Source: Cryobacterium suzukii (GTDB taxonomy: Bacteria > Actinomycetota > Actinomycetes > Actinomycetales > Microbacteriaceae). Taken from it: a DNA stretch of 64,000 nt. The translations under genes and the position numbers were made by a program. Location of the stretch: contig NZ_SOHJ01000004.1 of NCBI RefSeq assembly GCF_004403185.1, positions 465,768 through 529,767 on the forward strand. Reading direction: 5' to 3'. Of this stretch, positions 2,870 to 31,608 are shown piece after piece (position 1 is the stretch's first letter; the number at the start of each line of letters is the position of its first letter). Under the pieces are notes generated by a model. The model was not told the origin of the DNA. It made no database searches and worked only from the letters and a program-made list of their open reading frames with translations.

Positions 2870-3813
2870 CAGCTGACCTGCACTTGGGCTAGCGCCGGAA
2901 TCCGCTCCGGTTCCGGGTCGGGAGCCAGGGTTCCGTCGACGAGCTTGACGATTATGGAACAATCTTTACCGCCCTGTTCAGCATCGAGAACGCGCTGGAA
3001 CAATTGCTGCACGTGCTCCCCAATCTCCAGTGGTGTATTGGTTGCCCGCGCGGCGGCGATAGCCAGGCCGATATCTTTATTGGCCAACTCCGTCGTGAAC
3101 GTAGGTGCAAAAGCAGTGTTAGCGGCGGAGGATGCCACGACTCCGGCAATCGGATACCAGGTGCGCAGGGCCCAACTGTCACCGGAGGAAACCGACGCGA
3201 TATCCCAGAACACCTGTTTGTCAAGACCGAGACGATCGGCCAGAACAGCACCTTCAGCGGCCCCCGCGAGATTGATGAACAGCATGAGATTGTTGCAGAT
3301 CTTCGCCGCCTGGCCTGTGGTAGCTCCGCCAGTCGGAATGATGTTGGCAGACATCGACTCGATGAACGTGCTGGCAGCAGAGACGGCGTCGGGTTCCCCG
3401 CCGATCATGAACGTCAATGTTCCAGCCTGAGCACCGCTGATCCCGCCGGAAACGGGAGCGTCAACAAAACGGAATCCAGCCTCGGCTGCCGCATCGTGAA
3501 GCTTTTGAGCGGATTCGACGTCAATGGTGGAGGAATCGACAAGAAGGGTGCCGGGACTCACCGAGGCCAGCACGCCGCCTTCACCCAAGTACACGGCAAT
3601 GGCGTGGTCACCTTTGGGCAGCATGGTGAAGACGACCTCGGCGCCAGAGACAGCATCCGCGATGCTGCTTGCCGGTGTGAGCCCATTGGCCGCCGCAGCC
3701 GCGAGCGCCTGCGGATTCAGGTCGAAGCCTCGCACTTCATGCCCGGCCTTCACCAGGTTTGCCGTCATCGGGCCACCCATATTGCCCAGACCGATCCATC
3801 CGATTGCACCCAT
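2869..3813 (-). CDS. mmsB: 3-hydroxyisobutyrate dehydrogenase
   Basis: 314 aa. NAD-dependent beta-hydroxyacid dehydrogenase converting 3-hydroxyisobutyrate to methylmalonate semialdehyde, the substrate of the coupled mmsA. The Rossmann motif 'GWIGLGNMGGPM' is at residues 5-16. 'DAPVSGGISGAQAGTLTFMIGG' is the substrate-binding signature, and 'GQAAKICNN' contains the catalytic Lys (about 171). ATG 3813 is chosen because AAAGGAG lies 7 nt upstream; the in-frame TTG two codons earlier is too close to it. Transcription probably starts in the 3814-3969 interval shared with the divergent LysR gene, which holds a TGTGCAT/ATGCACA inverted repeat. Confidence 0.9.
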   Translation of the reverse strand: MGAIGWIGLGNMGGPMTANLVKAGHEVRGFDLNPQALAAAAANGLTPASSIADAVSGAEVVFTMLPKGDHAIAVYLGEGGVLASVSPGTLLVDSSTIDVESAQKLHDAAAEAGFRFVDAPVSGGISGAQAGTLTFMIGGEPDAVSAASTFIESMSANIIPTGGATTGQAAKICNNLMLFINLAGAAEGAVLADRLGLDKQVFWDIASVSSGDSWALRTWYPIAGVVASSAANTAFAPTFTTELANKDIGLAIAAARATNTPLEIGEHVQQLFQRVLDAEQGGKDCSIIVKLVDGTLAPDPEPERIPALAQVQVS

Positions 3814-3969: not shown

Positions 3970-4878
3970 ATGGTTGATTTCAAGCGGTTCCCGAGCCCGG
4001 ATGATCTGCTCATCCTGCTCACCGTGGCGCGCCTAGGGCGATTCACCGCCGTGGCCGAGGCGCTGAAAACCACCCACACCACCATTTCCCGTCGGATTCT
4101 GGCGCTGGATAAGCGGCTGGGTGGGCGCACCCTCGAGCGAAGCCCGCACGGATGGGAACTCACAGAGCTGGGAAACCAGGCAGTCCGCGCAGCTGAGATC
4201 ATCGAGACCAGCCTGGGCGCTCTCACTGCAACGCTCGCGCATGACGCGGATCCGCTTTTCGGACTCGTACGCATCAGCACGCCCGACGGCTTCGGCGCAG
4301 CTTTTGTCACCCCCGCCTTAGTCAAGCTTCAACAGCAACATCCCAAGCTGAATGTGGAGATGCTCAGCGCTACAAGAAAGATCAACCAGAACCGCTCCGG
4401 CGTCGACTTGGAAGTCGTGGTCGGCCCAATCGACGCGAGTAGAGCACAGACGATATTTCTGACGAACTATTTCATCCGACTGTATGCCAGCCCCGAATAC
4501 CTCGGCACGAAAGGAACTCCAAAGACTATTGATGACATCAAGGACCACAATTTTGTGTCCTACGTTGAGTCATCCCTCCAGGTAACCGAGCTGGGGCATC
4601 GCTCGTCACAGTTGCCAAATCCAGCCGCAAGCTTCCAATCCACCAGTATCTTCGGCCAGGTCGAAGCGGTGCGACGCCACAGTGGCATCGGATTGCTTCC
4701 GTCTTTCATGGTGTGGGGGCGGCCTGGTTTTGTCCCCGTGTTACCGGATTCTTTTCGCCGGGAGCTGCCAATTTGGGCTGCCGCTCGCGCCGAGTCGCTT
4801 CGGTCCATGGCCGTGAAGGCAGCAATTGAGGCCATCCAGCAGGAGATCTCCGAACGCCGGAACGAATTGGCGGCCTAA
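3970..4878 (+). CDS. LysR-family transcriptional regulator
   Basis: 302 aa. The N-terminal winged helix-turn-helix ('LLILLTVARLGRFTAVAEALKTTHTTISRRILALDKRLGG', residues about 15-53) is followed by a periplasmic-binding-like effector domain. ATG 3970 is chosen because GGAAGG lies upstream at a usable distance; a TTG six codons earlier overlaps that site. It is divergent from mmsAB and convergent with the MHS transporter, the standard layout for a LysR protein controlling a neighbouring catabolic operon. The effector is unknown; valine/3-hydroxyisobutyrate breakdown intermediates are a guess from the neighbours. Confidence 0.9.
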   Translation: MVDFKRFPSPDDLLILLTVARLGRFTAVAEALKTTHTTISRRILALDKRLGGRTLERSPHGWELTELGNQAVRAAEIIETSLGALTATLAHDADPLFGLVRISTPDGFGAAFVTPALVKLQQQHPKLNVEMLSATRKINQNRSGVDLEVVVGPIDASRAQTIFLTNYFIRLYASPEYLGTKGTPKTIDDIKDHNFVSYVESSLQVTELGHRSSQLPNPAASFQSTSIFGQVEAVRRHSGIGLLPSFMVWGRPGFVPVLPDSFRRELPIWAAARAESLRSMAVKAAIEAIQQEISERRNELAA

Positions 4879-4969
4879 CTGGTACGGCGGCCCACCCGGT
4901 CTGTGGTTTCACAGATCTGCCTGCAGCAGATCACTTCGTCCGCAACCCCAAGCCCGTCTATCTGACGCT

Positions 4970-6352
4970 TTACCGCGCGTCGGTGCGTTCTCGCAGCGCC
5001 GCCGTTTTTTCTAGGTCGGCTGCATCGACATCGTGAAGCGAGATCCCTCTCGTTTCTTTCATGGACACCACAGCGACGACAGTTACCGCACAGGCAACCA
5101 ACAGATAAACGGCAATCGGCACCGATGAACCGGTGCCCCTCAGCAGCGCGGTGGCGATAATCGGGGCGAGCGAACCGGCCACGATCGACGTGACCTGGTA
5201 CCCCAGTGAAACACCGGAATACCGCATACGGGTGGGAAACATTTCCGACATGATTGAGGGCTGCCCGGCATACATCAGTGCGTGGAACACGAGGCCCATC
5301 GTGACGGCGATCATAATGATCAGTTCATCCGCGGTCTCCATCATGGGGAAGGCAAAGAATCCCCAGGTCGAGCCCAACACCGCGCCCGTCAAGTAGACGG
5401 GTTTCCGGCCAACCGCGTCGGAGAGTTTCCCGACCAGCGGAATAAGACAGAACTCGATTGCATGCGCTATGAGCATCAGCAACAAGATCTTGGCTGTGTC
5501 CATCTTCACCACCACCACCAGGTACGTGATCGAGAAGGTGACGACGAGGTAGTAAAGTACGTTTTCCGCAAATCGCAGCCCCATCGCGGTGAAGACACCG
5601 CGCGGGTAGCGTCGAAATACCTCAATCGCGCCGTAGCCCGGCGTGGGTGCAGCTTCAGCCTTCAGACGTGATTCTTCGAATATTGGAGCATCCTGAACCT
5701 TCGTGCGAATGTAGTACCCGACAATGACGATTACCGCTGAGAGCCAAAATGCGACCCGCCAGCCCCAACTGAGGAATGCGTCCTCAGGCAGGGTCGCAGA
5801 AAGCCCCAGGAGAACAACGGTGGCCAGCAAGTTTCCTCCCGGAACGGCTGCCTGCGGCCAGCTGGCCCAAAACCCACGAGATTTATTAGGACTGTGCTCC
5901 GCTACCAGCAATACGGCGCCACCCCATTCGCCGCCAACCGCAAAGCCCTGAGCGAATCGCAAGAACACCAAAAGCGCCGGCGCCCAATAGCCAACTTGAT
6001 CAAACGTTGGCAAACATCCCATGAGGAATGAGGATACACCGACCAAAACAATGGCAACCTGAAGCAATCGCTTGCGCCCAAACTTGTCACCAAAGTGGCC
6101 AAAAACGATTCCGCCGATTGGACGTGCGAGAAAGCCGACGGCATAGGTCAGAAAGGCCGCGAGGATACCGTCAAGTTGCGAGCCAGCATTGGGAAAGAAC
6201 ACCTGGCCAAACACCAAAGTCGCCAACGAGCCATACAGAAAAAATTCATACCATTCAACGATGGTGCCGGCCATTGAGGCCGCCACCACTTTCTTTAATC
6301 CTGTCGGTTTTGCCTCTATGCCACTCTGGCTTTTGGAAACTTGCGTGCTCAA
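4970..6352 (-). CDS. MFS transporter, metabolite:H+ symporter (MHS) type
   Basis: 460 aa, 12 predicted membrane segments. 'VEWYEFFLYGSLATLVFGQVFFP' and 'ARPIGGIVFGHFGDKFGRKRLL' are signatures of the MHS group (ShiA/ProP/KgtP-like uptake of organic acids or osmolytes). The start is TTG 6352, six bases after AAAGGAG. The longer frame to 6382 would place that ribosome site inside the gene. Its upstream region carries two ATGCACAA words matching the half-site next to the LysR gene, so it likely belongs to the same regulon as mmsAB and may import the acid that feeds it. The substrate cannot be read from sequence. Confidence 0.85.
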   Translation of the reverse strand: MSTQVSKSQSGIEAKPTGLKKVVAASMAGTIVEWYEFFLYGSLATLVFGQVFFPNAGSQLDGILAAFLTYAVGFLARPIGGIVFGHFGDKFGRKRLLQVAIVLVGVSSFLMGCLPTFDQVGYWAPALLVFLRFAQGFAVGGEWGGAVLLVAEHSPNKSRGFWASWPQAAVPGGNLLATVVLLGLSATLPEDAFLSWGWRVAFWLSAVIVIVGYYIRTKVQDAPIFEESRLKAEAAPTPGYGAIEVFRRYPRGVFTAMGLRFAENVLYYLVVTFSITYLVVVVKMDTAKILLLMLIAHAIEFCLIPLVGKLSDAVGRKPVYLTGAVLGSTWGFFAFPMMETADELIIMIAVTMGLVFHALMYAGQPSIMSEMFPTRMRYSGVSLGYQVTSIVAGSLAPIIATALLRGTGSSVPIAVYLLVACAVTVVAVVSMKETRGISLHDVDAADLEKTAALRERTDAR

Positions 6353-6483
6353 TTGAATCTCCTTTGGTGTCAGCACTGACACTGCATGGAATAACGTATC
6401 TAACTCTATAAATACGACGACAAAGACATCCCGTGAACCAATAAAAGTATTACTGTGCCGTCAACATCACACGACGTCAATTC

Positions 6484-6512
6484 ATGCACAAGCTATCTGC
6501 ATCAATGCACAA
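6484..6512. promoter_or_regulatory. Two direct ATGCACAA sites upstream of the MHS transporter
   Basis: ATGCACAA occurs at 6484-6491 and 6505-6512, 21 bp apart (two helical turns), about 130-160 bp before the transporter start. The same word forms half of the inverted repeat at 3914-3929. The second copy overlaps the 3' end of the upstream gene. Binding by the LysR protein is inferred. Confidence 0.45.
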
Positions 6513-7347
6513 TGGCGCTAGCGGTCACGTCCAATTGAGTGGTGTTGTTTCCCAGTGTTAATGTCGCGCCAAAGCGCTCGGTGCTGGAGTAACGGCGCTC
6601 GATGCCTGAAGTAGCTTGACCCCACTCGCTGCTGGCGACACGCTCCTGATGAGTTGCAAAGGCGGCTTCGTGCTCGAAGCGCTCCTCGACCTGCCACACC
6701 AGCGGATCGCTCGTCGCGGTGACGTTGAACGAACGGCATCCCGGTTCGGCGCGGGTCAGGGCAAGGTGCAGTGCTAAATGATCCCGGACAGTGTTCGCCT
6801 GGTCCTGGGTGTGGCAAGCAAGCTGCCCGCTCAGGCACACCGCGCTGTCGAGGATCTTCTTTTTCATCTTGTAATTGGTCAGCCGCACGCCGCCCGTCAC
6901 CGGGTGCTGCTCTGCCTCGACGGTGAATCCGTGGCGCTCGAAGAAGGGGCGGGCTGTGATGCTGACGTCGGCCGTCAGTTCTGCCAACTGCGCCGTGCGC
7001 GCGTGGGCCTCCACTCGAGCGATCAGTTGCCGTGCAACCCCCTGTCGCTGGCATCGGGGCGCGACGAACAGCATGTCGATATACCCCACAGAGTTCACAT
7101 CGGAGAAGCCTGCTGGTGCACCATCCACGGTCGCCACGTAACTGTTCCGCTCCTGCATCGACGCATGCCAGGTGGTCAGATCTCGCGCTTCTGGCCGAGC
7201 CCACGCCTGAATCTGCTCCGGCGAGTAATCGGCGGCAGCCGTCTCGGTCACCGCCGCAAGGAATATTGCCAAGGTGTCGGCGGCATCCGCTTGACCGTAG
7301 GAACGGATGACGACGGCTTGCGTATCGGTGCTCTTGTTTAATTCCAC
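6502..7347 (-). CDS. GNAT acetyltransferase fused to an ABM-type monooxygenase domain
   Basis: 281 aa, two modules. Residues about 12-162 are a GNAT N-acetyltransferase with the acetyl-CoA loop 'VAPRCQRQGVARQLIARVE' and the C-terminal 'FFERHGFTVEAEQ'. Residues about 167-250 ('VCLSGQLACHTQDQANTVRDHL', 'TRAEPGCRSFNVT', 'WQVEERFEHEAAFATHQ') resemble the dimeric ferredoxin-like antibiotic-biosynthesis-monooxygenase/quinol-monooxygenase fold. The start is GTG 7347 with only a weak ribosome site. Its promoter is separated from the preceding gene by a CTGGC repeat. The substrate of either half is unknown; a dual-activity detoxification enzyme is only a suggestion. Confidence 0.75.
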   Translation of the reverse strand: MELNKSTDTQAVVIRSYGQADAADTLAIFLAAVTETAAADYSPEQIQAWARPEARDLTTWHASMQERNSYVATVDGAPAGFSDVNSVGYIDMLFVAPRCQRQGVARQLIARVEAHARTAQLAELTADVSITARPFFERHGFTVEAEQHPVTGGVRLTNYKMKKKILDSAVCLSGQLACHTQDQANTVRDHLALHLALTRAEPGCRSFNVTATSDPLVWQVEERFEHEAAFATHQERVASSEWGQATSGIERRYSSTERFGATLTLGNNTTQLDVTASAIVH

Positions 7348-7368
7348 AGAACTAGCATCTCACCGTGA

Positions 7369-7398
7369 CTGGCCTGGCCTGGCCTGGCCTGGCCTGGC
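7369..7398. repeat. Tandem repeat (CTGGC)x6
   Basis: Six exact head-to-tail copies of CTGGC lie in the 65-bp gap between the GNAT-ABM gene start (7347) and the end of the next gene (7413). The tract is non-coding and a candidate for slippage changing promoter spacing. Confidence 0.9.
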
Positions 7399-7412
7399 GG
7401 CACTTAGCGGTT

Positions 7413-8246
7413 TTACCAGCGCTTGTTGAATTCTTTGGTGATGTGGCTTCTGGTCGCCGCGTGGTTTGCAGTGTTGGTCGCGCGAGTGCGCGCACCCTCC
7501 TGCCGAATACTGCCTATGGCCGCGCCCGTGAGTGCCGCGTTGACGACGTTGCCGACCGCGACGAGCTTCCGAGTGCGCTGCGCTTCGGCCAATTGCCAGG
7601 CCTGCATATTCTCCATTCGCTGGCGATGCCGTTCAGTCTCGAACAAGTTGAGCGCTTCAGAAATACTGGTGGCGCGGTGGTTCCGCACCATCTGCACGCA
7701 GAAGCCGACCGCTTCGTCGTACATATACGCCTGCGGGAAGTCACGAATGTGCGCGGCTATATCCCGACTGGCTTGGTTCAGTTTCGCGAGAACAATCTGC
7801 TCTTCGGCCCGAACCGGTTCGTTGTGTGCCGCTCGCTTCTTATTGATTCGTTCCGCACGTCCGTGCAGCAGCGGAAGGATCAACTTGTTTCGCATGAGCA
7901 GGACTGCGAGCGCGAGGACAAGGGCGACCGGAATCATGAGGATGGCCACATTGAGCATCTGGATATTTGGGTACCGGATCGAACCCTCTGCGTACGCCGC
8001 AGCTTTCGCCTGGGCCTGGATGATCGGTGTGCCGATCACCGTGAGAACTAAGAGGAGCCCTGCCGCCCACAGTGCGAACGGCAACAACCGCCACTTATCC
8101 TTGAGTGGCGCTAGCGGGCGGTAGCGCTGCGTGATCGCAGTCTTCTCCTGCGACCACACATCGATCCAGCGGAGAACGTTATGCAGGTAAGCCAGCCGCG
8201 TTTCGAGCTGTGCCCTGGCGTCACCGGCCTGTTGAGTATTCATCAT
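7413..8246 (-). CDS. Hypothetical membrane protein with two central TM segments
   Basis: 277 aa. Two hydrophobic segments, 'LLPFALWAAGLLLVLTVIG' (about residues 53-72) and 'MLNVAILMIPVALVLALAVLLM' (about 97-118), separate a short acidic N-terminal region from a long charged helical C-terminal region rich in Arg, Glu and Gln, possibly a coiled coil. GAAGGA precedes ATG 8246; a second ATG follows immediately. I do not recognise a family. It lies with two other small membrane proteins on the same strand (8420-8617 and 8634-9326), so the three may form one unknown envelope function. Confidence 0.65.
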   Translation of the reverse strand: MMNTQQAGDARAQLETRLAYLHNVLRWIDVWSQEKTAITQRYRPLAPLKDKWRLLPFALWAAGLLLVLTVIGTPIIQAQAKAAAYAEGSIRYPNIQMLNVAILMIPVALVLALAVLLMRNKLILPLLHGRAERINKKRAAHNEPVRAEEQIVLAKLNQASRDIAAHIRDFPQAYMYDEAVGFCVQMVRNHRATSISEALNLFETERHRQRMENMQAWQLAEAQRTRKLVAVGNVVNAALTGAAIGSIRQEGARTRATNTANHAATRSHITKEFNKRW

Positions 8247-8367
8247 GAAATCGTTCCTTCTCTGAAGTGAGGCGAAGCCGTCTCTTGCCTCGACCTTTGA
8301 GGCGACCGCGCGGATTACGATGACAGCGAATCATCACGACTGGAGGTGCGGCGACGGCCGCTTATCA

Positions 8368-24723: not shown

Positions 24724-25023
24724 ATGAAATTCGTGCCCCCTTGGTTGTACTACTCCGTGTTGCGCGTCTTAATGTTTGCCGCACCGCTGGCAATTCTGCT
24801 GTCCCTGGGGTTGTGGCCTTGGGCGTCCGCTGTAATCGCCGCGTTGGTCGGCCTGTGCCTGTCCTATCTTCTGCTGGGCAAGTCGCGCGAAAGTGTTGCC
24901 CGCGACCTCTACCAGGCGCGGCACCCCGACAAGCAGACGGTGAACCCGGATTCCGAGATCGAGGACTCGCTAATGAATGCCCAGGAGCACACGAAGTCAG
25001 AACGCGAAAGCAAGTCCCAGTAG
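24724..25023 (+). CDS. DUF4229 domain-containing membrane protein
   Basis: 99 aa with two TM helices ('VLMFAAPLAILLSLGLWPWASAVIAALVGLCLSYLLLG') followed by 'KSRESVARDLYQARH', the DUF4229 signature, and a charged tail. TAAGCT ends 6 nt before ATG 24724. The 3' end overlaps convergent menA by 27 bp, so the last codons are read on both strands. Family function unknown; it is usually found next to menA/menD. Confidence 0.85.
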   Translation: MKFVPPWLYYSVLRVLMFAAPLAILLSLGLWPWASAVIAALVGLCLSYLLLGKSRESVARDLYQARHPDKQTVNPDSEIEDSLMNAQEHTKSERESKSQ

Positions 25024-26040
25024 CAGGCCATAGGCGAGCGCCGCGAGGCTCGTTAGCTTGAGGGCGAGGATGAGTTCTTTCGCCGACGTGGCGGTGATCG
25101 TGATGAGGCAGGCCGGCAATGCCAGCAGCAGCACGAAGAACGTGAAGATTCCGAGCGGATAGACCAGGCTGAAAAGACCCGCGATCACGAACGGCAGCAA
25201 CAAGAAGATGCAGAAGACGACCCGGGAGGCCGTACTTCCGATTCGCACCGCGAAGGTACGCTTGCCGGCTGCCTTATCTGGCACGATGTCACGCAGGTTG
25301 TTGACCATGAGCACGGCACAGGCGATCAACCCCATCGCCACACCACCGAGAACGCTCTCGGTGGTGAAGTCGCCGACCTGCACATAGGTCGTGCCCGCGG
25401 TAGCTACGAGACCAAAGAATACGAAAACGAACACTTCACCGAGGCCCAGGTAGCCGTAGGGCTTCTTGCCGCCGGTATAGAACCACGCTGCGGCGAGGGC
25501 CACAACGCCAACGAGCAACAGCCACCAGTGCTGGGTCAGAATGACGAGCGTGATACCAGCCGTGGCAGCGAGGCCAAAAAAGGTCAAGGCCACGCGCAGC
25601 ACGGTGCGCGGGTTGGCGACGCCGCCGCCGGTGAGCCGAGCTGGTCCAATCCGAAAGGCGTCGGTGCCTCGGATGCCGTCGGAATAGTCATTGGCATAGT
25701 TGACGCCGATCTGCAGGAACAGCGCCACGGCAAGTGCGAGCAACGCGCGCACCGGATGGTAAACGCCGGGTCCACTCGCCACGATCGCGGCACCGGTACC
25801 GAGGAGTACCGGAGCAATGGCGAGCGGCAGAGTGCGCAGGCGTGCGCCCGACACCCAGTCGGAGGCCGTGGCTGGTTTGACCCTGGCCGGCCCTTTGCGG
25901 GGCGGTCCGGACTTATACGCCGGGTGGCCGGATTTGCTGCTGCGGCCACCCGCTGTGCCACCCGTATTAGCGCCCGCCATCTTCGCCGTGGGGTTCAATC
26001 GTTGTTGTTTGGGCCTGACCGGCCGAGCTCCTTGTGCCAC
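24997..26040 (-). CDS. menA: 1,4-dihydroxy-2-naphthoate polyprenyltransferase
   Basis: 347 aa. UbiA-superfamily integral membrane prenyltransferase with the first Asp-rich motif 'NYANDYSDGIRGTD' and a second 'NNLRDIVPDKAAGKRT'. It attaches the polyprenyl chain to DHNA. The first about 60 residues are an unusual basic, Gly/Pro-rich extension. GTG 26040 has TAACAT 6 nt upstream (leaderless pattern), supporting it over ATG 25980. The stop region overlaps DUF4229. It is separated from menE by the surface-protein locus at 26.0-30.2 kb. Confidence 0.93.
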   Translation of the reverse strand: MAQGARPVRPKQQRLNPTAKMAGANTGGTAGGRSSKSGHPAYKSGPPRKGPARVKPATASDWVSGARLRTLPLAIAPVLLGTGAAIVASGPGVYHPVRALLALAVALFLQIGVNYANDYSDGIRGTDAFRIGPARLTGGGVANPRTVLRVALTFFGLAATAGITLVILTQHWWLLLVGVVALAAAWFYTGGKKPYGYLGLGEVFVFVFFGLVATAGTTYVQVGDFTTESVLGGVAMGLIACAVLMVNNLRDIVPDKAAGKRTFAVRIGSTASRVVFCIFLLLPFVIAGLFSLVYPLGIFTFFVLLLALPACLITITATSAKELILALKLTSLAALAYGLLLGLAFAF

Positions 26041-26049
26041 GCCCCCATG

Positions 26050-27099
26050 TTAGTAGGCGTCCGCTGGCACGACGCCATAGCCGATGGCCGCCCGGTCATC
26101 TGAGTCATCGTCGCGCCGACGCCGCCGCCATACGAGAAGAGCGATGATGATCAACAGCAACAGCAGACCAATAATGGCGAGATACAGCCACCCGGGCGGT
26201 CCAGACTCCAGTGGTACCGCGGCCGCTGTGCCGGCGTCAGGGAAGGTGATCGTCGCATTCGCGCTTCGTTCCAGGAGCCCGCTGTGCAGGGTGATCGTGG
26301 CATCCCAGGGGCCGTCCGGTACCTCCTTGTCCAAAACAATCGTGACCGGTTCGGTGTCACCGATGCCCACGGTTGTGCCGAGGACGACCGGAAATGGGCC
26401 GGCGCTGAGCCCGCCGGGGCCGTCCATCAACTGCAGGGTGCCGAACACGTCAAGAGCCCGCCCACCGGTGTTTTGGACCGACGCGACGACCGTGGGTTGA
26501 CCGTCGGCCGATCGCGCGGCGGTGAGGGAGCCGACCAGGAAGTCGGCCGCGGGCGCTCCCCCCGGCCCGACAGAGAGGTAGATTCTAATCCCGACCCGGT
26601 TGACAACAGTCACACCATCTCCACTTGTGGGCGGGGCGCTCACCTCTGCCCAGACCACGCCGTATTGTTCGCCGGGTGCGGCATCCGCGGGAACCGTGAT
26701 GGTCACCGTAGCTGTCACACTTCCACCGGCAGGTACGGTGGGCGATTCACGATCGACCGAGGTCCAGGTGGACAGGTCGTTGGGGGTCTTGCCTTCGGCA
26801 CCGAGGAAGGCGCCAGCGGTGATGCTTGCCGCACCGGAATACAGGTTGATCGTCGTCGCGTCTGGCAAACCGTTCGCCACGTCGATCCGGCGCTCAATGA
26901 CCGCTCCGGGAGCGACGTGGTCAACGATATAGAGGCGCGCGCGCGGGTCATCAGTCGCGTTGGCCGGAATGTCCAGGAGCCGTAGTCCGATACTGCCGGC
27001 TGGCGCCGAACTCCCCGCCGCCTGGGCGGACGGTACGGACGGTACTAGCAGACCGACAATGACAGCAAGGACGACAGCGACGACGGGTTGTATTCGCAA
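26050..27099 (-). CDS. DUF916-like (WxL-interacting) membrane-anchored surface protein
   Basis: 349 aa. A signal peptide ends near 'AQAAGSS' (about 28). Two beta-rich regions follow: residues about 35-170 contain 'RIDVANGLPDATTINLY', 'LSTWTSVDRESPTVPAGGSVTATVTITVPADAAPGEQYGVVWAEV', and residues about 180-290 hold a second beta sandwich. One C-terminal TM helix ('WLYLAIIGLLLLLIIIALLVW') is followed by RRRRR. The W...VPAG..T...VP....G...GV layout is that of the DUF916 WxL-peptidoglycan-binding domain. It is downstream of two proteins sharing a WxL-like end and is probably their wall/membrane anchor. Confidence 0.7.
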   Translation of the reverse strand: MRIQPVVAVVLAVIVGLLVPSVPSAQAAGSSAPAGSIGLRLLDIPANATDDPRARLYIVDHVAPGAVIERRIDVANGLPDATTINLYSGAASITAGAFLGAEGKTPNDLSTWTSVDRESPTVPAGGSVTATVTITVPADAAPGEQYGVVWAEVSAPPTSGDGVTVVNRVGIRIYLSVGPGGAPAADFLVGSLTAARSADGQPTVVASVQNTGGRALDVFGTLQLMDGPGGLSAGPFPVVLGTTVGIGDTEPVTIVLDKEVPDGPWDATITLHSGLLERSANATITFPDAGTAAAVPLESGPPGWLYLAIIGLLLLLIIIALLVWRRRRRDDDSDDRAAIGYGVVPADAY

Positions 27100-27107
27100 G
27101 GAGGCTC

Positions 27108-29576
27108 CTAAAGCACGGAATGGGTGATGGTGAACGAGTAAACGCCGGCAGAACTACCGCTGGGCACGGCCACCGTGATTGTTGGGTCCCAGCTGGCCCT
27201 GTTGTACCCGACGACGCCGCTGGCGGTGACCGCTGGCGACGCATCCGTGAGATTGCCCCCAGCATTGGCCGTGTAGGTTGCCCTGCCATCCCGGCCGATC
27301 GTGCCAGCGGCGTAACTGATCGCGCTGGCCGGAATGGATTGCCCGGGCTGGGCGACCAGGGCGGTGGCTGTGACACTCGCGACCCAACCGACCGTGCTGA
27401 GAGTTCGCGAATCCGTCACCTTCACCGACCCGAGTTGGCCGCTGATCGTTCCGCCACCGACCACGTTTGCCCGCGTGCCAAGGTTGCCGGCACCCGTCGG
27501 CACGGAGATAGTGAGCAACCCAGCATTATCGGTGAGGGTAAAGGTGTTTGCGGCGAGGGTGATCGTGGCCGCGTAAGACAGCACGCGACCATCGACAACT
27601 GCGCCAGCGCCCACAGTGATCGCCCCGAGGGCCAGAATTGTGCCGACGAACGATGAATTTGCACCGGTGCCAGCGGCTCCGAGCACCTGCCAGAACACAT
27701 TGGAAGCCTGAGCCCCATTGATCAGTTTGATCTGGCTTGCCGCAGCAGTATTCAGCGCGGCGTCGACTTGAAAGATGAAGACGGCGCTGGGGTCGTTCTG
27801 GGCGTCCAGGGTCAGGGCCCCGGTGAGCGCAAACGCGGCGGCCGTGTGATAAACGCCCGCGGTGAATGTCCGGCCGTTCTGATCCCCGGCGAAGGCTCCG
27901 GTTGCGGTGCGACCCGCGGCGTCCTGGTAGGCGACCAACAGGTCAGGCACAGCGAGTGCTGCCTGGGGGTCGCCGGCGTGCGTGGCACCCGTGACGATTC
28001 CCGGGGGGAATCCCACGATCAAGCCCCCTGGGCCTACCCCGAGATCCCCGCTCAAGGTTGTCACGCCCGTGCTTGTCACCGCCGTTCCAGTCAGGACAGA
28101 AAAACTCGCCGCGGCACCAAGCGGAACCGGATAGGTCTTGGAATCCACCGTCAAAGCCTGGGTTGCCGCGCCCGTGTTGCCGGCAAGATCGGTGATCTGG
28201 GCCAGAACCTGATGCGTTCCATCGACCAGAGTGGCTGCCAGCACGCTCCACAGCCCACCGCTCTGAACGGTCGTCGTCAGGATCTGGTCGGCGATTTTCA
28301 CCGTGACAAACGTTCCGGGCGTGGCATCCGTTGTTCCCGAAGTCCTGGGCCGCGCCGTCGTCGCCCGGTTCGTCGATCCCGGCGTGATTGTCACGACCGG
28401 CGCAGTGCGGTCCGCGATCAATGACTGAGTGGCGGTGCCGACGACTGCAAACTCATCCGTGATTGTCACCACGACGTTGTGTGGGCCAACGGCCAGGGTC
28501 GGCGCGGTCACCGTCCATGTTCCGCCGGCCTGAACGGATGTCTGCTGAGTTGCGCCATCGATCGTGACCCGAACCATAGACCCGGCCGCGGCACTCGTCG
28601 TGCCCGAAATTATGGGCGTGGTTAGATTCGTATAGCCCAGCGCCCCCGGAGAGATCACGACGATTGGCGCGGCGGTATTGGTGAAGCGCACTCGGTTCGC
28701 GTTCAGGGCGATGGCCCCCGTAGGCGACAACGCCCGGCCCCGTACGGTCGCGTTCGCTCCGATAGCTATCGCTCCGAGGGCGACAATCGTGCCAGAAAAC
28801 AGGGAATTCGCCCCCAACGACACCGCGCCAAGGACCTGCCAAAAAACATTCGACGCCTGCGCGCCATTAACCAGGGCAATCTGGCTCGACGCGGCCGTCG
28901 AGAGGGCCGCGCCCACCTGAATGATAAAGACCGACGTTGGATCCCCCCGGCCGTCCAACGTCAGTGTTCCGCTCAACGAGATGGCGGCGGCCGCGTGGTA
29001 GACACCGGCGGTCAGGGTGGTCGCTGCGAGATCGCCAGCGATGCTGTGCAGCGTCGGGCGAGCGGCCGCATCGGCGTAAGCGAGCGTAACGGCGGCGTTC
29101 GCCAGGCCTGCGGACTCGTCATTGACGTGCACGCCGGCGCTCGTGATCGGGGCACCAGTGATCGCGCCCGCCGGGCTCACCCCCAATTCGCCGGTCAGGG
29201 CGGTCTCGCCGGCGCTAGATACCGACCCGCCAAGCACCGAGTAGGGACCCGCCAGGCCGAGCGGTACCGTGCGCGTCGCCTCAAGCGTGACGGCTGCGTT
29301 CGGGCCGGTGACGTTCCCTGCCGGGTCCGTCACGTCGGCCAGAGCCAACTGTTCTCCTTCTACCGGTAGCTCCGTGCCTGGCACCGTGAGTGCAACAGTC
29401 AGGTCCGCCAGCGACGCCTCGGCGGAATCCGCCTCGGTTGACACCGAAAAGCCGGCGGCGGAGCCCAACGACGCCACCGGCGCCGCCGCGCTGGCCGGTG
29501 CCGGGGCGGGCAGCAGGCTCAGCACAAGGATCGCGCTCGACCAGACGGCGACCCTGAAGATCGTCGCCTGGCTCAT
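27108..29576 (-). CDS. Secreted protein with two ice-binding (DUF3494) domains, two Ig-like domains and a WxL-like C-terminus
   Basis: 822 aa. A signal peptide (about 1-32) is followed by a first DUF3494 ice-binding beta-solenoid (about 104-302: 'PTSVFIIQVGAALSTAASSQIALVNGAQASNVFWQVLGAV'). Two bacterial Ig-like repeats (about 303-392 and 393-480) and a second DUF3494 domain (about 482-683, with the same 'NGAQASNVFWQVLGA' core) come next. The WxL-like domain (about 687-822) is homologous to the neighbour at 29622-30161 and also ends TITHSVL. ATG 29576 follows GGGAG by 8 nt; an ATG eight codons upstream is possible. Role: ice adhesion or surface adhesin, by family only. Confidence 0.88.
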   Translation of the reverse strand: MSQATIFRVAVWSSAILVLSLLPAPAPASAAAPVASLGSAAGFSVSTEADSAEASLADLTVALTVPGTELPVEGEQLALADVTDPAGNVTGPNAAVTLEATRTVPLGLAGPYSVLGGSVSSAGETALTGELGVSPAGAITGAPITSAGVHVNDESAGLANAAVTLAYADAAARPTLHSIAGDLAATTLTAGVYHAAAAISLSGTLTLDGRGDPTSVFIIQVGAALSTAASSQIALVNGAQASNVFWQVLGAVSLGANSLFSGTIVALGAIAIGANATVRGRALSPTGAIALNANRVRFTNTAAPIVVISPGALGYTNLTTPIISGTTSAAAGSMVRVTIDGATQQTSVQAGGTWTVTAPTLAVGPHNVVVTITDEFAVVGTATQSLIADRTAPVVTITPGSTNRATTARPRTSGTTDATPGTFVTVKIADQILTTTVQSGGLWSVLAATLVDGTHQVLAQITDLAGNTGAATQALTVDSKTYPVPLGAAASFSVLTGTAVTSTGVTTLSGDLGVGPGGLIVGFPPGIVTGATHAGDPQAALAVPDLLVAYQDAAGRTATGAFAGDQNGRTFTAGVYHTAAAFALTGALTLDAQNDPSAVFIFQVDAALNTAAASQIKLINGAQASNVFWQVLGAAGTGANSSFVGTILALGAITVGAGAVVDGRVLSYAATITLAANTFTLTDNAGLLTISVPTGAGNLGTRANVVGGGTISGQLGSVKVTDSRTLSTVGWVASVTATALVAQPGQSIPASAISYAAGTIGRDGRATYTANAGGNLTDASPAVTASGVVGYNRASWDPTITVAVPSGSSAGVYSFTITHSVL

Positions 29577-29621
29577 GAACCGTGCTCCCCGCTCCAACAT
29601 ATTGTGTCCGGTTCCTAGGAG

Positions 29622-30161
29622 TTAGAGAACCGAGTGGGTGATCGTAGCCGAGTAGACAGCTGCGACCGTGCCGCCGGGGATTCCCACGTTGATCGTCGGA
29701 TTCCAGGACGCGGCATTGTCGCCGGTAATTCCGCTGGCGGTCACCGCTGCAGAGACTCCGGTCAGGTTGGCCGGATCGTTAGCCAGGTACGAGGCCGTTC
29801 CGAACTTGCCGATGGTTCCGGCCGTGTAGCCCACGTAGCTGGCGGCAATGGTCGGGCCTGATGGCGGGGTGAAGGCGGTCGAGATGACGCTGGCAATCCA
29901 ACCGGAACCCGCAGCAGCGCTGCGAGCATCGCTGACCTTGACAGCTCCCAGTGAGCCACTGATCGTTCCGCCGTCGACCGTGTTGGCGCGAGTGCCGAGG
30001 TTTCCTGCGGACGTCGGCACGGAGATTGCCAGGACCCCACCGTCCACGGTGACCGTGGCGGTCGTCGTTCCGGAACTCGCTGCCGAGGCTGGCAGCGCGA
30101 TGCCCAACGTGAGAATTCCCACACCGGCAGCTGCCACGAGCGCGCGTGTTTTCAAATCCAT
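29622..30161 (-). CDS. Small secreted WxL-like protein
   Basis: 179 aa. Signal peptide 'LVAAAGVGILTLGIALPASAASS' (cut near 28). The rest aligns with the C-terminal about 135 residues of the adjacent 822-aa protein: 'ISVPTSAGNLGTRANTVDGG', 'SGSLGAVKVSDAR', 'GWIASVISTAF', 'YTAGTIGKFGTASY', 'VTASGITGDNAASWNPTINVGIPGG', ending 'YSATITHSVL'. The GW..SV motif and terminal Y.ATIT pattern resemble the two WxL motifs. GGAAGAGAG precedes ATG 30161. It is first gene of the surface locus with a structured leader. Non-covalent wall binding is inferred. Confidence 0.75.
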   Translation of the reverse strand: MDLKTRALVAAAGVGILTLGIALPASAASSGTTTATVTVDGGVLAISVPTSAGNLGTRANTVDGGTISGSLGAVKVSDARSAAAGSGWIASVISTAFTPPSGPTIAASYVGYTAGTIGKFGTASYLANDPANLTGVSAAVTASGITGDNAASWNPTINVGIPGGTVAAVYSATITHSVL

Positions 30162-30462
30162 ATGTAGCTCTCTTCCTGGGGGTCCGGGTCACGGATTTCC
30201 CCCCTGTGAGTGGAGGGGGGAACAACCGACCCAAGAAGGTCGGTCCCCTTTTATGAGGACAGACTATTGCGCCGTCCCGCCACGGTTCCCATCCCCGTGA
30301 TCCCCAATAGTGGGGTAATCCTCATGTTTTGATGCATTGGTATAGTCGCTGTGGTCGGCGCACGCCTGACCTCCGCGAGCGGCAAGTCACGGGCGCTTCA
30401 CGGACTCAGTGCCGCCCCGCAGCACTCGTTCCACCGGCAGACGAGTGCGCTTCAGCTGCGCC
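30162..30462 (-). promoter_or_regulatory. Leader/promoter region of the surface locus with hairpins; no gene
   Basis: No credible ORF. Three inverted repeats on the side of the WxL-like gene: CCCCCC/GGGGGG (30199-30204, 30215-30220), ACCGACC/GGTCGGT (30225-30231, 30238-30244) and CCCCA/TGGGG (30302-30306, 30311-30315). The first two would fold in the transcript just before the start codon; the third could be an operator. Near menE, GCACTCGT/ACGAGTGC (30422-30429, 30441-30448) forms a hairpin after the menE stop, possibly its terminator. Confidence 0.5.
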
Positions 30463-31608
30463 CTATCGGCGTTTTGCCAGAGTCACCAGGGCAAGGCGAT
30501 CGGGTTTACCCGAGGGGAGCAGTGGAATTGCCGTCACCACCACAATGCGGGTCGGTCGCGCGGCCCGACCCAGAACGGGAACGACGGATGCCGCCACTCC
30601 CGCCAAATCCGTCGCCACGCCTGCCCCCCCGGCCAACACCACGACCGGGACCTGCCCCCATTGCACGTCGTCGCCGCCGACCACGACGGCCTGGTCCAAC
30701 CCCGGCAGTGACCGGACGATGCGTTCGACGGCGTCGAGCGATACCTTTTCGCCTCCGGAGATGATCACGTTGTCGGCCCGGCCAAACACCGTGACTCGGC
30801 CATTGATCGGGTCAATTTCGCCGAGATCCCCGGTGCGATACCAGCGCACGCCGTGTTCAACGATGAATCGGTCGGCGGTGCGTTCGGCATCGCCAAGGTA
30901 CCCTTCGGCGAGCACCGCGCCAGAAAGCTCCAGCTGCCCGTCAACCACGCGCACGAGGGTGTCGCCGATCGGAGTCCCGTTGTACACGCAGCCGCCAGCA
31001 GTCTCCGACGATCCGTAGGTGCGCACGACTCGCACGTCGAGTTCGGCTGCCCGAGCGATGAGATCAGCCCTGATCGCCTGCCCGCCAACCAAAATCGCGG
31101 TGAAGCGACGCAGCACGGCCAGCAGGGCCGGGTCATCCGCCGCGTCGAGCAGGCGGGCCAGCTGCACCGGTACCAGCGCGGTGTAGCGTAGCGGCTCGGT
31201 CATGGTCTCGGCCAGCCGACAAAAGCCCTGGGGATCGAAGTGGCCCGGCGGCAGCATGAGGGGGGTGGTTTCGGCGGCGATCGAGCGCACGAGCACCTGC
31301 ACCCCGGCGATGTAGTGCAGGGGCAGAGCGAGCAGCCACTGTCCAGCCCCGCCGAGGGCGACGGCCGAGGCCGCAGCGCCAGCCAGCAGGGCGTTGGTGG
31401 CGAGCATGACCCGTTTCGGCGTGCCGGTCGACCCGGAGGTTTCGATCACGACCGCGACCCGTTTCGGCACATCATCGAGAATCACTTGACCGCCCGTCGG
31501 CAACGGCGACGGCAACAATGCCGGTCCGTTGCCCGCGAGCGCATCCCTCAACGCGGCGAGAAAGGCGGGCGGATGCTCCGGCACGAGGGTTCGCAGCGGC
31601 CTCACCAC
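30463..31608 (-). CDS. menE: o-Succinylbenzoate-CoA ligase
   Basis: 381 aa. Adenylate-forming enzyme activating o-succinylbenzoate. 'VVIETSGSTGTPKRVML' is the P-loop-like motif A3, 'RTYGSSETAGGCVYNG' motif A5, 'RWYRTGDLGEIDPINGRVTVFGRADNVIISGGEKVS' motifs A7-A8, and 'LLPSGKPDR' the catalytic Lys motif A10. At 381 aa it is shorter than the usual about 490 of Firmicutes MenE but normal for actinobacterial MenE. GTG 31608 has only weak upstream signals, so the start is less certain. Menaquinone pathway; menB, its usual partner, is not in this window. Confidence 0.92.
   Translation of the reverse strand: MVRPLRTLVPEHPPAFLAALRDALAGNGPALLPSPLPTGGQVILDDVPKRVAVVIETSGSTGTPKRVMLATNALLAGAAASAVALGGAGQWLLALPLHYIAGVQVLVRSIAAETTPLMLPPGHFDPQGFCRLAETMTEPLRYTALVPVQLARLLDAADDPALLAVLRRFTAILVGGQAIRADLIARAAELDVRVVRTYGSSETAGGCVYNGTPIGDTLVRVVDGQLELSGAVLAEGYLGDAERTADRFIVEHGVRWYRTGDLGEIDPINGRVTVFGRADNVIISGGEKVSLDAVERIVRSLPGLDQAVVVGGDDVQWGQVPVVVLAGGAGVATDLAGVAASVVPVLGRAARPTRIVVVTAIPLLPSGKPDRLALVTLAKRR

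Follow-up and report, generated by a model that had tools for sequence, protein, structure and literature searches.

A probably laterally acquired, diverged WxL-type gene cluster that may display ice-binding domains in Cryobacterium suzukii

WxL gene clusters are surface-anchoring systems chiefly familiar from gut bacteria. Nearly all descriptions come from Lactobacillales and Bacillales, and the account that we draw on discusses the clusters as host-binding systems (PMC10599100). In Bacilli they encode one small WxL protein, one large protein with a C-terminal WxL domain and one protein of two immunoglobulin-like (Ig-like) domains and a helix, with the layout DUF916-DUF3324-TM (PMC10599100, PMC9772566). 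WxL proteins carry two Trp-x-Leu motifs, the distal one reading YXXX(L/I/V)TWXLXXXP (PMC5817068). For Enterococcus, the third protein, WxLIP, has been modelled as completing the WxL sandwich with one of its strands and keeping the WxL protein at the wall, and its helix has been proposed to enter host membranes (PMC10599100). Because an Actinomycetota family has been mentioned, briefly, as having DUF916 neighbors (PMC12537917) and the share of 938 known WxL sequences placed in Firmicutes is given as >91% (PMC9772566), WxL members outside Firmicutes are not wholly unknown. Here we describe a three-gene cassette in a 64,000-nucleotide stretch of the Cryobacterium suzukii genome (contig NZ_SOHJ01000004.1; hereafter the window) that is, in our judgment, likely to be a diverged, actinobacterial-type WxL cluster displaying ice-binding domains, probably acquired laterally.

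An earlier note, made from the letters of the window, had proposed three same-strand genes with signal peptides in a high-GC Gram-positive bacterium. Both points held: the host is a Cryobacterium, and the minus strand carries open reading frames of 179, 822 and 349 amino acids (aa), with the signal peptides of all three called by eye rather than by a predictor. The features of the cassette are as follows:

29622..30161, minus strand: small WxL-like protein (P0001), 179 aa, with a signal peptide (by eye) and one WxL-like beta-sandwich domain
27108..29576, minus strand: large WxL-like protein (P0002), 822 aa
28671..29267, minus strand: ice-binding domain 1, residues 104-302 of P0002
27531..28127, minus strand: ice-binding domain 2, residues 484-682 of P0002
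27108..27530, minus strand: P0004, the WxL-like domain (140 aa) at the C-terminus of P0002, sharing 60% identity with P0001
26050..27099, minus strand: WxLIP-like (DUF916-like) protein (P0003), 349 aa, TTG start

P0002 runs from its signal peptide through DUF3494 domain 1, two Big_13 Ig-like repeats and DUF3494 domain 2 to the WxL-like C-terminal domain; an alternative ATG start at 29600 would give 830 aa. The cassette shares with the Bacilli clusters its set of one small, one large and one two-Ig-domain-plus-helix protein, the protein sizes, the fold of the third protein and, by profile, the homology of the shared domain. It differs in belonging to Actinomycetota, in having lost both Trp-x-Leu motifs (W-x-A and T-H-S-V stand in their places), in lacking the WxLIP motif NQIDKxxxYFDLK and in carrying an ice-binding rather than a host-binding module.

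P0001 and the C-terminus of P0002 are 60% identical across 146 residues (E 2e-46), which bears out the alignment over ~135 residues noticed earlier and rejects chance likeness. Family comparisons point to WxL as the origin of this shared domain. Scanning GTDB species genomes gave 191 P0003 relatives, the best 80 of which were kept as named loci. The WxL-like family A4 consists of P0001, P0004 and 90 of the 98 candidates that these loci yielded (limits E < 1e-20 and more than 150 model columns; eight near-duplicate or weaker rows left out). Of its 92 domains, 42 have a PF13731 match at E <= 0.1, the best at 3.8e-9. The profile of the window's own WxL-like family (A2, 14 rows) aligns at 97% probability (E 8e-11, 155 columns) with that of the small proteins of a second type of Cryobacterium cluster (A6), 20 of 21 of which match PF13731 at E <= 0.1. 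As a control, the WxL-like family profile scored 0.03% against ice-binding domains, and we reject the idea that the profile matches merely reflect beta sequence rich in alanine and threonine. PF13731 is found above its cut-off in 17 of 57 Cryobacterium genomes and, among 14 control genomes, in Lactococcus lactis only. The position of the domain also fits what is expected of WxL, a stretch of 120-190 aa that closes an exported protein (signal peptides again by eye) in a cluster with a small WxL protein.

The proposal that a GW motif and the terminal motif recall the two WxL motifs stood in part. In the A2-A6 alignment, the invariant GW tryptophan lines up with that of the first W-S-L motif, and this residue, W88 in P0001, is kept in 92 of 92 A4 domains; two positions on, alanine stands in 72 of 92 and leucine in none, the site in P0001 reading W88-I-A. 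The P0001 C-terminus, Y-S-A-T-I-T-H-S-V-L, occupies the place of the second motif, and none of the 92 domains has W-x-[LIVMF] in its final 14 residues, the tail being mostly THSV. Several results weigh against a WxL assignment. Neither Trp-x-Leu motif is kept in any of the 92 domains; P0001 by itself matches no family in Pfam or NCBIfam; P0004 reaches only E 0.057 against PF13731 (13.8 bits, below the 25-bit gathering score); no WxL chain (9i25) is among the 50 best PDB entries for the P0001 model; and the A4 profile retrieves from PDB sequences only two glycoside hydrolases (E 0.27-0.28) and no WxL chain. A fold search with the P0001 model returned nothing at E 0.001 or below, and of ten close P0001 relatives scanned singly, six have no Pfam WxL match and the four that do (E 3.1e-4 to 0.031) all stay below the cut-off. 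By strict tests, P0001 and P0002 fall outside PF13731. Given the family and profile matches together with the complete loss of the motifs, the shared domain is, on profile evidence, a diverged WxL homologue without both name-giving motifs, and by analogy it may bind peptidoglycan.

The identification of P0003 as a WxLIP largely holds on profile alignment and predicted fold, which are stronger than its scores against PF06030 (DUF916). The P0003 family (A5: P0003 and 79 of 83 rows, after dropping the near-duplicate L119, L128 at a contig end, L149 with a stop, and L146) aligns with Pfam-confirmed WxLIPs of the same genus at 98.1% (E 7.7e-14), and the top PDB matches of the AlphaFold2 model of P0003 are the solved Enterococcus WxLIP structures, E. 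faecium WxLIP first. The model (predicted local distance difference test score 89.4) has strands at 37-177 and 187-284, forming two Ig-like domains, and a helix at 303-339; the protein ends in a hydrophobic helix followed by RRRRR, and its 349 aa suit the WxLIP layout of two Ig-like domains and a C-terminal membrane helix in 337-365 aa. If diverged members count as WxL and WxLIP, the adjacency of the two is present in the window.

The evidence from single sequences is less kind to the DUF916 assignment that the earlier note had made. P0003 scores E 0.36 against PF06030 (11.3 bits, below the 27.3-bit gathering score) and better against NPCBM_assoc (E 2.4e-4), which also matches more of the A5 relatives (48 of 80) than WxLIP_PGBD does (40 of 80). 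Weak PF06030 matches are not specific, since they occur in seven of 14 control genomes, above the cut-off in two. A DUF3324 match was found neither in the Pfam search of P0003 nor, for A5, among the 25 of 36 families listed, and the fold matches to WxLIP have template modelling scores of only 0.34-0.48 with a root-mean-square deviation of 7.5 A or more. All of this counts against a WxLIP. Within A5, the 40 PF06030 matches at E <= 0.1 reach 2.7e-6 at best, and the best same-family Cryobacterium members score 25.5 and 25.2 bits, also below 27.3. The N-terminal WxLIP motif NQIDKxxxYFDLK (PMC10599100) is missing from the A5 consensus, where DDPRARxYIVDHLxPG stands near that place. The WxLIP-like profile retrieved from PDB sequences TLP-IPT (E 2.8e-4; repeats of ~60 residues) and a kinase (E 1.2), and no WxLIP chain.

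The ice-binding part of the large protein is as the note had it. In P0002, Pfam recognizes two PF11999 Ice_binding stretches at E 1.7e-93, with 312 bits where 28.7 would suffice, together with a pair of Big_13 repeats (E 9e-16). The two DUF3494 domains share 56% identity, and both match PF11999 and the solved ice-binding proteins 5uyt, 6eio and 7bwx. Domain 2 is closest among solved chains to the two-domain 5uyt and the single-domain 6eio (E 1e-43 each), which are without a WxL-like tail, and nearest overall to Arthrobacter copies (71% at L127, 69% at L165). By homology, both domains would be expected to bind ice.

In the working that we favor, signal peptides would export all three proteins, and P0003 would serve as the WxLIP, its two Ig-like domains lying outside and its C-terminal helix, with the basic tail, sitting in the membrane of the bacterium itself. 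This architecture is predicted, and we place the helix in the own membrane because many of the carriers are free-living and arginines follow the helix; insertion into host membranes is unlikely in free-living bacteria. A strand of P0003 would complete the beta-sandwiches of the WxL-like domains of both the small and the large protein, as modelled for Enterococcus WxL and WxLIP, so that the large protein would keep its two DUF3494 domains, spaced by the Ig-like repeats, at the cell wall and binding ice. For this cassette, wall binding, ice binding and WxL-WxLIP contact are expectations carried over from related systems, the contact from the Enterococcus work. Going by the domain family, this may let the cell attach to ice, or may give shape to the ice and brine next to its surface. 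The large gene probably arose when a copy of the small-gene domain was joined to an ice-binding protein. The adhesin MpIBP of Marinomonas primoryensis belongs to a Gram-negative bacterium and has a different ice-binding fold. It resembles the window in that a larger protein holds an ice-binding domain on the cell surface, and it differs as a 1.5 MDa RTX adhesin that is set against DUF3494 proteins; known ice tethering is the work of a different protein, in Marinomonas (PMC5014055).

PF11999 occurs in 46 of 57 Cryobacterium genomes. The second cluster type, present in 16 of the 57 including that of the window, pairs a WxLIP that exceeds the Pfam cut-off with an adjacent protein in which one to three DUF3494 domains are joined to a WxL-type C-terminus; there are 17 such fusion genes in all. 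Like the window, these clusters combine small WxL genes, such a DUF3494 protein and a WxLIP. Unlike it, they keep W-x-[LV] at the first motif (except in one of the 17 large proteins), end mostly in T-F-T-I and usually have three ice-binding domains, and their WxLIP is ~30% identical to P0003. Their fusion tails were called by a profile, wxl3, iterated on loci that included some of the fusions; Pfam WxL matches 15 of the 17 at E <= 0.1, and it is the low scores, with only one above the cut-off, that speak against counting them as WxL. In the window's own genome, the second cluster (L057, G000:C12:126000-140000) comprises open reading frames 3180-3785, 4016-6478, 6445-7668 and 7709-8359, the large protein having three DUF3494 domains and a WxL-type end with a W-T-L motif. 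Elsewhere in this genome, a 1,152-aa frame at G000:C8:116547-117110 holds a DUF3494 domain and Ig-like repeats resembling those of P0002. At locus L224 (G037:C1:629000-643000), a single cluster contains two DUF3494-WxL fusions as distinct genes.

Outside Cryobacterium, an Arthrobacter bin (L165) encodes a signal-peptide-like start, a DUF3494 domain, a pair of Ig repeats and the beginning of a second DUF3494 domain, up to a run of N; past the run comes a DUF3494 domain whose end is WxL-like (Pfam 2.3e-54 and 0.0014), and the fusion lies on the strand opposite the small-protein/WxLIP pair. Judged by sequence, this architecture is close to the window's, with an uncertain number of ice-binding domains. 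Two genomes of 7.4-7.5 Mb from another family (G135 and G395) carry one DUF3494 domain each, with a tail of THAVA or THSVA; a third genome (G341) has a broken DUF3494 fusion. Among the 80 named loci, four (L112, L127, L141 and L165) contain ice-binding genes, against a rough chance expectation of ~0.04 from taxa that are not a random draw, estimated from ~90 matches in 394 genomes, ~5,000 genes per genome and 11 genes per locus. Because the tails are of two types, we infer more than one origin of the fusion.

The trio that the note had asked about is rarer than the pair of small protein and WxLIP within it. Strong P0003 relatives occupy 13 loci in 12 of 57 Cryobacterium genomes; a P0001 relative adjoins at all 13, and no DUF3494 domain was found at the 12 other loci in the stretches as fetched, leaving the full trio in the window alone. 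Across the named loci, which span Arthrobacter, Streptomyces, Lentzea, Streptosporangium, Rhodococcus, Frankiales, others and one Bacillota-labelled bin, a WxL-like gene lies directly upstream of the P0003 relative in 77 of 80 by an un-iterated profile built from Cryobacterium rows only. Among the three exceptions, the pair is present at L163 with an overhanging frame, a contig end truncates L128, and L167 gave no match. In a class-wide sample, at least 98 of 394 genomes and at least 36 of 137 genera have a WxL-like domain, counts that are lower bounds since at most nine candidates were scored for most genomes. The closest P0001 relatives are in Nocardioides (78%, over a slightly shorter stretch) and Arthrobacter sp. 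B6 (76%). Judging from these profile counts, the diverged pair is common in Actinomycetota.

Other large proteins occur at such loci. In Lentzea (L136, L142, L143 and L151), proteins of ~1,570 aa with a WxL-like C-terminus by profile lie beside the WxL/WxLIP pair; the one at L142 (1,572 aa) has LamG, DUF2341 and Ig domains, and Pfam lists no WxL in it. A 741-aa FG-GAP repeat protein of Actinokineospora (L173, 6636-8861) directly follows the WxLIP gene and has a WxL-like C-terminus by profile, again with no WxL listed by Pfam. WxL proteins of Lactobacillus reportedly bind cellulose and xylan. A WxL-like match at G418:C183:14104-14553 lies within a 3,153-aa open frame, and a third kind of DUF916-like gene stands beside frames of 590-1,026 aa with WxL-like TLTLT ends at L058, L060 and L061 (genomes G040, G003 and G023).

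The cassette lies between two genes named from sequence rather than by family search:

30463-31608, minus strand: menE
26041..30462: menE-menA interval holding the cassette, 4,422 bp
24997-26040, minus strand: menA

menA is present in 57 of 57 Cryobacterium genomes. At the 29 other loci examined, out of 56 other genomes, the menE-menA gap measures 11-160 bp by tblastn ends, as against 4,422 bp in the window, so the cassette was, most simply, gained at this junction, and its ancestral presence there in Cryobacterium is rejected. Lateral acquisition is probable. A WxLIP tree built by a quick method, leaving out five genus rows already in under names, places C. aureum L109 and two Arthrobacter rows beside the window (support 85, not starred), and because this support is weak, the donor is not established. 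The three genes are 21 or 45 bases (first and second, depending on the start) and 8 bases (second and third) apart, and an AGGAG, seen by eye, overlaps the stop of gene 2 ahead of gene 3; this tight arrangement suggests one transcript and an operon-like unit. GC-rich hairpins at 30190-30330, 5' of the small gene, belong to no Rfam family and are not unusual by shuffling (z -1.55); no Rfam family was found near the cassette, the window having only four tRNAs, and a sigma-70-like promoter was looked for and not found.

Among the alternatives, the one that survives best keeps a WxL-type display cluster and gives its DUF3494 domains a ligand other than ice, such as a glycan or another cell, in the role of an adhesin. 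DUF3494 is indeed widespread in the class, being present in at least 65 of 394 genomes and at least 29 of 137 genera, many of these genomes measuring 7-10 Mb; other large proteins with a WxL-like C-terminus hold lectin-like or FG-GAP modules; and a fusion similar to that of the window exists in G135 and G395. No WxLIP was detected in the stretch fetched around either of these two, which tells against our interpretation of the cassette; DUF3494 therefore need not bind ice everywhere, nor need the tail always have a neighboring WxLIP. Against a non-ice ligand here, both domains match PF11999 and the solved ice-binding proteins, and Cryobacterium species inhabit cryospheric environments (PMC10067761). 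We consider such an adhesin unlikely for this cassette.

It is quite improbable, in our view, that P0002 is a secreted ice-binding protein whose C-terminal domain serves only folding or self-assembly, next to an unrelated NEW3-type membrane protein with no part in anchoring. Such a protein would accord with NPCBM_assoc, not WxLIP, being the best single-sequence Pfam match of P0003, and with the 30 ice-binding loci given by the best match in each of 30 Cryobacterium genomes, of which 23 encode proteins that end just past the ice-binding domain and look secreted; the profile alignment and predicted fold of P0003 speak for a WxLIP. The other seven loci encode a LAxTG-like tail and a membrane helix, which probably put DUF3494 on the cell surface as in the window, by a sortase-type tail and without a WxL-like domain. 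Very improbable is a fibre of donor-strand-linked small WxL-like subunits with the ice-binding protein at its tip and the WxLIP-like protein as chaperone or base, in which WxL and WxLIP would be a Gram-positive counterpart of pilin and chaperone, in keeping with pilus chaperones being nearest to the WxLIP fold after its own family; the WxLIP would donate a strand to the WxL sandwich, and the small subunits would hand that strand from one to the next to build a thin ice pilus without usher or sortase.

Turning back to a WxL cluster that displays ice-binding domains, we found no literature joining WxL with ice binding or with Cryobacterium, and none that has DUF3494 and WxL together among the matches listed; the diverged WxL/WxLIP pair, its spread and its ice-binding fusions are, to the literature as searched, new. 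The commonness of a related pair in Actinomycetota, which are often free-living, bears on the proposal that the WxLIP helix inserts into host membranes (PMC10599100), as a host membrane there is hard to imagine and the simpler alternative of the own membrane becomes testable. An ice-binding protein anchored by a WxL domain would lack a membrane segment at its C-terminus, and a criterion based on such a segment would overlook it. Finally, ice-binding domains joined to two kinds of WxL tail occur in several lineages, and this suggests selection for wall-bound ice binding.
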